A stretch of 56,439 nt of DNA from Anaerolineae bacterium CG2_30_57_67 (GTDB taxonomy: Bacteria; Chloroflexota; Anaerolineae; Anaerolineales; Villigracilaceae), in the NCBI GenBank assembly GCA_001872455.1, contig MNXJ01000053.1, positions 1 to 56,439 on the forward strand. Reading direction: 5' to 3'. How positions within the stretch are numbered: position 1 is the stretch's first letter; every line of letters begins with the position of its first letter. Position numbers and translations under genes: made by a program. The notes under the pieces are model-generated. The model ran no database searches and had not been told where the DNA came from. It worked only from the letters and a program-made list of their open reading frames with translations. Of the stretch, positions 21,277-27,710 are shown one piece after another.

Positions 21277-21380
21277 CCGTTTTGCAAGCAATATTGTTTA
21301 GTAAGGAGTCCAAAGCCTCCAGATTTTCACGCCAACGTCGGGAGAAGTTAGACTCCGAAACCGCACAAAATTTGCGCATT

Positions 21381-26083: not shown

Positions 26084-26777
26084 TACTCAAATCCAAAATG
26101 CTGGCCGTTGTCCTGGTCACTTTTCTCTTTGGCGGCATTCTGATTTCCTCTGCTTTCGGCTGGTGGCAGACCGAATCGACCAAACAGCCCGCCACCTTCA
26201 GCGAGGGCGAATTCGCCGGGCAGGCCAACCCCGCCGACATTCGCGGCTCGTATACCTTTGGCGATATTTCTGCCGCCTTCGCCGTCAGCAATGCCAACCC
26301 GGCGGCTTACCCGGTCAAAAACCTGGAAACCATCTACGCCGACAGCCCGCAGGAAATCGGCACCGGCTCGGTGCGTCTGTTCGTCGCCTTTTACACCGGT
26401 CTGCCCTTTGATTTGACCACCGCCGAAACCACCTACCTGCCCGAATCCGCCGCGCAGATGCTGCGGGAACTGGGGACTTGCCCCCGGAGCGGCTCGCTTT
26501 CGTAGAGAGTCACACCCTGCTGGCGGGTGAAAACGCCCCCGCGCCGGAAGCGGCTACCGTCACCCCAGCGCCCGCCCCCACCGAATCGGCGACCACCGTC
26601 AAAGGCAAAACCACCTTCGGCGAGTTGCTGGACTGGGGCGTGCCGCAGGCCGTCATCGAAAAACTGATTGGCGCGCCGCTGCCCGACCCGGCCATGACCG
26701 TCAAAGATTACGCCACCGCCAACGGCCTGGATTTTGAAACCCTGCGCCCCGCCCTGCAAGCCGAGGTGGATAATTAA
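26080..26777 (+). pseudogene. Exported or anchored protein gene with a frameshift
   Basis: The first frame (MILKSKMLAVVLVTFLFGGI, one membrane anchor, about residues 7-27) runs to a stop at 26503-26505. The family-like sequence continues in another frame from about 26478 (LPPERLAFVESHTLLAGENA) to 26777. Adding one G in the run GGGG at 26472-26475 would join them. The joined protein would be about 232 residues, with a C-terminal region (KTTFGELLDWGVPQAVIEKL...) that I associate with partners of iron-sulfur membrane proteins. Either a real inactivation or a base-calling error. Confidence 0.65.
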
Positions 26778-26825
26778 ACAAGTATAGCCTCTCAAAAATG
26801 CTTGACTGCTAGATAAAAAGATCAT

Positions 26826-26866
26826 CCTCGGTAAAATTGGTATTGCCAAACACCTGACTACCGAGG
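26826..26866. repeat. Inverted repeat CCTCGGTA / TACCGAGG
   Basis: Perfect 8-base arms (26826-26833 and 26859-26866) around a 25-base centre, in the 460-bp stretch between the frameshifted gene and rpsU. Ten bases later an 11-codon open frame (26876-26911) reads MKHSTLKPWQE then stop, reminiscent of the LKPWQ segment near the DNA-binding end of IS630-type transposases. Probably the residue of an insertion sequence. Confidence 0.35.
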
Positions 26867-26915
26867 AGTATCGATATGAAGCATAGCACGCTCAAGCCAT
26901 GGCAAGAATAAGTGT

Positions 26916-27043
26916 CCCAAAATAGTGTGCACGCACAAGGTTGTCAGGGCGCAGTGGACGGAGTACAAAATCTCCTGATTTTGCTCGAAAGTCAGGAGAC
27001 TTTCGACTCCATCCCTGACATGATTTGCGTGCACCCCCAAAAT
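26916..27043. mobile_element. MITE-like palindromic element flanked by 8-bp direct repeats
   Basis: An imperfect inverted repeat of about 110 bases. Outer arms GTGCACGCA (26927-26935) and TGCGTGCAC (27026-27034) are perfect. Inner stems are TGTCAGGG (26942-26949) with CCCTGACA (27013-27020), GGAGT (26960-26964) with ACTCC (27006-27010), and an 11-bp apical stem 26972-26982 with 26988-26998. The element is bracketed by the direct repeat CCCAAAAT at 26916-26923 and 27036-27043, as expected of a target-site duplication. It carries no gene. Confidence 0.65.
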
Positions 27044-27050
27044 TTGCGGC

Positions 27051-27079
27051 TTCCACCAGAAGAAGGTGTGTAGTATAAT
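27051..27079 (+). promoter_or_regulatory. Promoter for rpsU-infA
   Basis: A consensus -10 TATAAT at 27074-27079 with TTCCAC at 27051-27056, spacing 17. It starts 8 bp after the palindromic element's right direct repeat, so that insertion sits immediately upstream of the promoter. The start point would be near 27086, giving a leader of about 150 bases. Confidence 0.6.
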
Positions 27080-27085
27080 TCTAAA

Positions 27086-27237
27086 GTTACAGTTCAGCTC
27101 TCGTTGACTCTCAAGGAGTTTTGCAGGAATTGTTCTTTGTTATCTAGTTCATTCCTCTACGCAAAGATGCTCGGCTGTGTCTGTGACGCGCCGAGTTTTC
27201 TTTTTTTCATTCCCTCATGGAAGGGAGGTGAATTTAC
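27086..27237 (+). promoter_or_regulatory. rpsU leader with internal terminator (attenuator candidate)
   Basis: Between the promoter and rpsU there is a strong intrinsic terminator: CTCGGC (27170-27175) with GCCGAG (27190-27195) followed by TTTTCTTTTTTT (27196-27207). Upstream, AGGAAT (27125-27130) can pair with ATTCCT (27151-27156) and ACTC with GAGT near 27110-27120. Either a small RNA of about 120 bases ends here or read-through into rpsU is regulated. Confidence 0.6.
27170..27207 (+). terminator. Intrinsic terminator upstream of rpsU
   Basis: Six GC-rich pairs plus weaker inner pairs and an interrupted 12-base T-run. It lies 31 bases before the rpsU start codon and 91 bases after the -10 box, so it can only act on a leader transcript or small RNA. 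Confidence 0.75.
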
Positions 27238-27435: not shown

Positions 27436-27452
27436 GTTGGTTGGAGGTGTGT

Positions 27453-27710
27453 ATGGCGAAAGATGACGATAAACTGGTGATGGAAGGTCTGGTGATCGAA
27501 GCCTTGCCTGGGACGCAGTTCAAAGTCCGGCTTGACAACGGTCACGAGGTCCTGGCCTATCTTTCGGGAAAGATGCGCAAGTTCTACATCCGCATCCTGT
27601 TGGGAGATCATGTCAAGGTAGAAATGTCGCCTTATGACCTGACCCGTGGGCGAATTACGTATCGCCAAAAGAAAACGGCCAGCGGCGAATTCATGCTCGA
27701 TAGTAAATAG
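27453..27710 (+). CDS. infA: Translation initiation factor IF-1
   Basis: 85 residues from ATG 27453, which follows TTGGAGGTGTGT; a TTG start at 27441 is less likely. IF-1 is an S1-like OB-fold that occupies the A site during initiation. Segments [35 protein letters not shown] and [12 protein letters not shown] are diagnostic. It has a tail about 13 residues longer than usual. In many bacteria infA lies between map and rpmJ; here it is with rpsU. Confidence 0.95.

Follow-up and report, generated by a model that had tools for sequence, protein, structure and literature searches.

IS-derived MITEs and REP/REPIN palindromes, which as classes of small repeat are mostly discussed separately, are linked by the element described here. 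In the section of Guerillot et al. 2014 cited here (PMC3942029), members of the ISKra4 group (p-MULT 4) target sigma-A promoters, and 13 ISKra4-group ISs, along with TnGBS and ISLre2 elements, insert approximately 13 to 17 bp upstream of −35 boxes; a transposase motif is described there as a signature of this targeting. MITEAba12, according to the excerpt of its report used here (PMC6382973), is a gene-less element of ~110 bp that has the ends of a known IS type and 9-bp duplications in 40% of its copies. REPINs and BIMEs, as presented in part of Bertels and Rainey 2011 (PMC3116915), are inverted pairs of palindromes with complementary loops, which can form one long hairpin or two and are present in many dispersed copies. 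The short dispersed palindromes of PMC3733652 are defined by a GTAG or CGTC end tag, and those with CGTC have no dedicated transposase; the excerpt of that paper covers stem-loop repeats and RAYT genes flanked by TIRs and contains no REP doublets inside MITEs.

The window is a stretch of 56,439 nucleotides (contig MNXJ01000053.1, positions 1 to 56,439, forward strand) of Anaerolineae bacterium CG2_30_57_67, whose 2.99-Mb draft genome consists of 87 contigs and is 98% complete. Positions 26916 to 27043 of the window are a MITE of 112 bp with an 8-bp duplication of CCCAAAAT. As in the ISKra4-group ISs of PMC3942029, elements of this type lie upstream of sigma-A promoters, which can be on either side of the element, and two scanned full-length elements bearing the same ends encode a transposase of the same family; unlike those ISs, the window element lacks a transposase gene and is built around a palindromic core, with GTGTGCACGCAAA as its TIR. 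It resembles the excerpted MITEAba12 in length, in the absence of genes, in having IS-type ends, and in the partial presence of duplications (here perfect over 8 or 9 bp in 40 of 80 elements) but differs in its IS, its promoter targeting, and its REP doublet core. That core has in common with REPINs and BIMEs, as excerpted, the inverted palindromic pair, the complementary loops, the option of one long hairpin or two, and the many dispersed copies; it differs in its GGA(G/C)TC start, in that no linked RAYT was found, and in that 40 of 67 REP loci examined in its own genome lie by transposon ends. With the tagged REPs of PMC3733652, in the part cited, it shares the form of a short dispersed palindrome and, with those of the CGTC type, the lack of a dedicated transposase, whereas the end tag differs, the units starting with GGAGTC or GGACTC in place of GTAG or CGTC.

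Structure of the element and its insertion site

Table 1. Features of the element and the adjacent rpsU-infA region (positions in the window)
Feature	Position	Strand	Basis or remark
Left target-duplication copy, CCCAAAAT	26916-26923	no strand	Repeat comparison
MITE body, 112 bp	26924-27035	+	Copies, inverted ends, sister elements
Left terminal inverted repeat, GTGTGCACGCACAAGGTTGTCAG	26925-26947	+	1 base more than family
REP unit 1, GGAGTACAAAATC-TCCT-GATTTTGC	26960-26984	+	
REP unit 2, inverted, GGAGTCGAAAGTC-TCCT-GACTTTCGA	26985-27010	-	
Right terminal inverted repeat	27015-27035	-	Pattern match 27015-27036, 1 mismatch
Right target-duplication copy, CCCAAAAT	27036-27043	no strand	Single copy in relative G004
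rpsU-infA promoter	27050-27079	+	-10 TATAAT 27074-27079; weak -35 CTTCCA 27050-27055 (3/6)
Presumed rpsU-like ORF, 65 aa	27238-27435	+	
Presumed infA-like ORF	27441-27710	+	

The element is located between an ORF ending at 26777 and the promoter of two ORFs that we take, by sequence recognition alone, to be rpsU-like and infA-like (Table 1). An earlier note on this DNA had described a gene-free, imperfect palindrome of ~110 bases with perfect 9-base outer arms and bracketing direct repeats and had read it as a MITE-like element with an 8-bp target duplication. This description holds: the two CCCAAAAT copies are identical, the body is 112 bp, the outer arms (26927 to 26935 and 27026 to 27034) pair at 9 of 9 nucleotides, and the three overlapping ORFs of 53 to 60 aa in the element are all without support. 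An inner pair of arms (26942 to 26949 and 27013 to 27020) is likewise perfect at 8 of 8 nucleotides. The apical stem, given earlier as 11 bp, comprises 12 pairs when folded at minimum energy, and its bases can alternatively fold as two separate hairpins. In agreement with the suggestion that a transcript would form a stable RNA hairpin, the predicted fold has an energy of −52.6 kcal/mol (z score, −6.16), and none of 200 shuffles was as stable.

The duplication matches at 8 of 8 positions only with the right end placed at 27035; moving the right end by one base to 27036, where the consensus end pattern puts it, and starting the element at 26925 leaves 8-bp flanks that agree at 7 of 8. For the family as a whole, chance can be discarded, since a perfect 8- or 9-bp repeat was found in 40 of 80 complete elements. 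Just left of the MITE (26820 to 26915), we observed an inverted repeat (GATCATCCTCGGTA and TACCGAGGAGTATC) and a short reading frame, which may be the remnant of another mobile element.

Copies, target duplications, and the parent insertion sequence

Further copies, anticipated in the earlier note, are dispersed through the genome: 32 BLAST matches were obtained, part of them to the inner hairpin only, and the 22-nt end pattern has 26 sites at ≤3 mismatches, versus 0 for the reversed control pattern. In the genome collection, the exact end pattern was found in at least 117 stretches; among the matches listed, 115 of 117 are by record title from Chloroflexota, and the remaining two are from one Moraxellaceae and one Abawacabacteria MAG (L074 and L106), which may be misbinned or transferred. 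From the matches listed, a set of 80 complete elements (74 short and 6 long) was assembled that includes ten other complete copies from the element's own genome and leaves out the window copy on account of the additional base in its left end. A perfect direct repeat abuts both ends over 8 bp in 31 and over 9 bp in 9 of these 80; with ≤1 mismatch allowed, the counts are 37 and 11, whereas 200 shuffled pairings averaged 0.47 and 0.15. Among the long elements listed, four of six have a perfect duplication. The direct repeats that the earlier note expected in sister copies were found in many, over 8 or 9 bp, but just one of the ten other complete copies in the element's own genome is perfect (L019, 9/9), with L005 and L018 at 7/8, L004 at 7/9, and six showing no clear duplication.

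The window element is short, has inverted ends, and lacks a transposase gene; its dispersed copies carry target duplications, and its ends are common to autonomous elements, of which six complete ones of 1,491 to 1,538 bp were found in other genomes among the matches listed. The empty site proposed for relatives was recovered in part: G004 has GCCTAAAATTTCGGCCTTCC at the place of the window's CCCAAAATTTGCGGCTTCC, equivalent to one target copy, and keeps CCTAAAATTT where the window has CCCAAAATTT, but four same-genus relatives, G004 included, diverge to the left of the element, and a clean empty site was accordingly not seen. Inspection by eye of the 500 nt 5′ of rpsU in these four relatives revealed no such element. 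The two outcomes against which the note had set its reading, a single-copy sequence conserved with its flanks and sister copies without direct repeats, were not encountered, and the checks made on copies, full-length elements, and relatives favored that reading.

The proteins of two of the six full-length elements (477 and 463 aa) were scanned and score 224.5 and 228.5 bits against the NCBIfam ISKra4 model, above its cutoff of 205; one of the two passes Pfam UPF0236 (cutoff, 24.3) at 27.1 bits, the other being below it. No homologue of this ISKra4-type transposase was found in the 98% complete draft of the element's own genome. Transposase matches are present in 13 of 61 genomes and exceed 200 bits only in G006 (698.5 bits), which belongs to the same family as the window's genome; the next-best genome match, at 172.6 bits, has internal stop codons. 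Near its C terminus, the G006 transposase is spread over two reading frames. Twenty stretches of G006 were examined, nine of which have complete elements and 11 single ends. This genome contains a 1,491-bp IS (the same element as L117) with an 8/8 duplication, six MITEs of 204 to 209 bp with the same ends (duplication of 8/8 in five of six), and two shorter elements of 111 and 130 bp with duplications of 7/8 and 4/8. Duplications in the ISKra4 group are 8 to 9 bp long.

Insertion upstream of promoters

A −10-like box, defined as a ≥5/6 match to TATAAT, lies 36 to 40 nt from the element end in 79 of 234 distinct outward flanks among the matches listed. Random positions at the same loci averaged 2.9 and never exceeded 6 (50 draws). 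Away from this distance, the same flanks have a −10-like background of 5.7 per five positions, which is higher than the average for random positions; flanks of TIR-B, a set of unrelated ends described below, have the box at this distance in 1 of 51. Counted by element among the matches listed, 43 of 73 scorable mini-elements have the box on at least one side (four on both) and 30 have none at the right distance, while four of six full-length elements have it at 36 to 40 nt. In the window, a TATAAT-like box lies 38 nt from the element end. A −10 at 38 nt places the −35 near 15 nt, so that by its −10 spacing the element falls within the 13 to 17 bp upstream of −35 reported for the ISKra4 group. 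The sequence TGTAGTATAAT at the rpsU-infA −10 is conserved in same-genus relatives.

The position next to the rpsU-infA promoter, already pointed out in the earlier note, is thus explained by a family-wide −10 spacing: the element stands beside the promoter of an essential gene pair because the transposase habitually targets that spacing. There is good support for promoter-directed transposition along the ISKra4 route. Promoter targeting has been published for full-length ISKra4-group elements, and our counts indicate that it is kept by non-autonomous copies; such MITEs may therefore flag promoters, and alter their activity, in a phylum with poor annotation, and the sharp −10 peak at 36 to 40 nt could be exploited as a naturally occurring means of locating promoters in uncultured Chloroflexota.

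The interior as an inverted REP doublet

Between its ends, the window element consists of GGAGTACAAAATCTCCTGATTTTGC and an inverted GGAGTCGAAAGTCTCCTGACTTTCGA, two palindromes with complementary loops. Judged from these letters, the interior is an inverted, REPIN-like REP doublet, and, as in REPINs and BIMEs, the palindromic unit of which it is composed is dispersed. The REP-unit pattern has 110 sites in the element's own genome at ≤3 mismatches (control, 0), some perfect palindromes being scored on both strands. With ≤2 mismatches, the unit is found in 23 of 61 genomes, all 23 among the 37 that belong to the window's family (with the own genome counted) and 0 among the 24 from other families. 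The 67 REP loci examined in the own genome, which leave out 17 further sites (7 plus 10), divide as follows: 17 lie by ISKra4-type ends under a loose criterion that makes three doubtful, 22 by TIR-B, 1 by both, and 27 by neither. In 94 REP units of this genome, where perfect palindromes may score on both strands, pair 7:24 is CG in 62, GC in 27, TG in 3, and GG in 2, and pair 10:21 is AT in 43, CG in 31, TA in 1, and another combination in 19.

REP units were also observed within open frames, at L276, L277, L278, L284, and L235 (997 to 1059), the last inside an ORF resembling an ATP-binding-cassette protein, and at 12 of the 27 free REP loci of the own genome a frame is open across 150 nt on each side.

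Compared with the earlier note, the promoter targeting and the REP nature of the interior are new. No mention of ISKra4-type MITEs or of REP doublets inside MITEs was found in the open-licence literature; as evidence of novelty this is weak, because the search covered open-licence papers only.

A second carrier family and other interiors

The same type of REP doublet is carried by a second family of MITEs. Its end, TIR-B (CAATACTGTTTAG), bounds 18 complete elements of 71 to 94 bp, with a perfect 10-bp duplication in 9 of 18 and a match of ≥9/10 in 12 of 18 (shuffled mean, 0.84; maximum, 4). Eleven (93 bp) have a core with a 52-nt REP doublet, three (71 bp) have a single palindrome, and four are degenerate; because the search for these elements started from REPs, any TIR-B elements that lack them would be missed. 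Covariation in the 18 TIR-B doublets is not above shuffles for a model of two small hairpins and is modestly above them for one long hairpin, whose score was reached in 4 of 500 shuffles, which favors the long form in the TIR-B family and counts against the two-hairpin form. The pair counts from the 94 own-genome units are a better sign of within-unit pairing than this covariation. A damaged TIR-B copy is present in the window itself (21289 to 21370), with the left end CAATATTGTTTAG and a REP doublet, the right end being lost.

The interiors of the 74 short ISKra4-ended elements among the matches listed form 11 clusters (BLAST; E value, 1e-4). The likeness of their ends is partly due to the choice of search pattern; this choice has no bearing on how the ends pair or on the duplications. 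Among the matches listed, at least two hairpins are kept in 28 of 74 interiors, versus 3.6 expected from shuffles, as counted by a finder (stem of ≥6, loop of 3 to 9) that often credits window-type copies with one hairpin only; the same finder detected no hairpin in 17 of 74, including all 10 of the CCCTGAGCGG cluster, so not every interior is a REP doublet. Three clusters have a loop starting with TCC: the window type, GCGCCG(TCCY)CGGCGC, and GGCGGC(TCCCAC)GCCGCC. At the loci examined, the GCGCCG type is without ISKra4-type ends in G062 (7 of 7) and in part of G063 (4 of 7), and it has at least one such end in G061 (7 of 7). At L257 (G063), a doublet of this type lies between other 13-nt inverted repeats, TATTACAGCGCAA, 10 nt of which are seen at L246 (G062). 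Additional dispersed repeats in the element's own genome (L017, L009, L014, and L273) include a GGTGATTACCCACA-type inverted repeat and palindromes of the GCGACATnnATGTCGC form.

Origin of the element and alternative explanations

With a probability of roughly 85%, we regard the window element as a REP-carrying MITE with ISKra4-group ends that was inserted by a promoter-targeting transposase acting in trans. This account draws on the ends, copies, duplications, promoter spacing, REP doublet, and second carrier family, all as read from DNA sequence. The ends match those of an ISKra4-group (Mutator-superfamily) IS, the window element being non-autonomous, and an ISKra4-type transposase, not found in the genome today, would have acted in trans on the ~22-nt ends. 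Insertion would have occurred into CCCAAAAT, approximately 14 to 15 bp from the −35 and 38 bp from the −10, on the upstream side of both, with 8 bp duplicated and with a spacing set by the habit of the transposase, not by chance. The inverted REP doublet between the ends, with TCCN loops, is likely a captured module, one that also occurs free and inside an unrelated MITE family, and in other Anaerolineae the same ends enclose other interiors, many of them palindromic. We infer both the transposition in trans and the capture or exchange of the doublet. The rpsU-infA promoter may be mildly insulated by the element, or a UP element replaced: the element end now sits where a UP element could have been, and transcripts arriving from upstream could be terminated at the hairpins.

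More tentatively, ISKra4-type ends with an exchangeable cargo slot might serve in Anaerolineae as a vehicle for RAYT-less REP doublets, repeatedly captured and planted ~15 bp upstream of −35 boxes. Pointing in this direction are the 11 interior clusters, the occurrence in one genome of one doublet type under two unrelated end types, and that of another type under a further end type elsewhere. Such a vehicle would offer a route for the spread of REPs without a RAYT, and, if the reading is true, the paired hairpins could be ready-made insulators between neighboring genes.

The element could instead be an ordinary internal-deletion MITE whose palindrome is a by-product of its formation (template switching on fold-back DNA), the likeness to REPs being convergence. 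MITE interiors are often palindromic, and the interiors here differ between genomes, but neither end type is found at 27 of the 67 REP loci examined in the own genome, and the doublet type recurs inside a second MITE family, and we consider this origin unlikely. It also seems quite unlikely that the REPs come from the MITE rather than being carried by it, the free ones being decayed MITE cores. While 40 of the 67 examined own-genome REP loci lie by MITE ends, the free REPs often start with GGACTC and have other stems, and G011 has 134 REP sites (≤2 mismatches) and two ISKra4-type end sites, although a TIR-B source is possible there.

REP doublets elsewhere are thought, in the excerpt of PMC3116915, to be moved by RAYTs, and a RAYT-type tyrosine transposase might correspondingly have put the doublet into existing MITEs. 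The sole Y1_Tnp match of the own genome was considered as the REP mover and rejected, having no REPs nearby. Among 20 scanned loci, drawn from 27 Y1 matches in eight REP-rich relatives, 18 are without REPs, and the other two have one single REP and one doublet inside another ORF, neither being REPIN-like flanking. Given these results, we hold the involvement of a RAYT to be very improbable. On contig C44 of the own genome (L172, 238 to 1902), only part of a 554-aa ORF matches Y1_Tnp, and similar long frames of 525 to 603 aa surround Y1_Tnp matches in relatives; the 554-aa ORF is perhaps a domesticated transposase domain.

That the very stable hairpin directly 5′ of the promoter is a conserved regulatory RNA or terminator of the rpsU-infA leader is hardly credible, as none was seen 5′ of rpsU in the four same-genus relatives, the element has a target duplication and genomic copies elsewhere, and the one Rfam match is far under its gathering score and outside the element.

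In the rpsU leader proper (27080 to 27237, and L174 to L188), the motif CGGCTGTGTCTGTGAC is conserved, with a terminator-like stem and a T-run after it, and this arrangement is common to relatives. The consensus fold, computed from a gap-rich alignment, gave no structure; the motif is possibly an attenuator or a ribosomal-protein leader.
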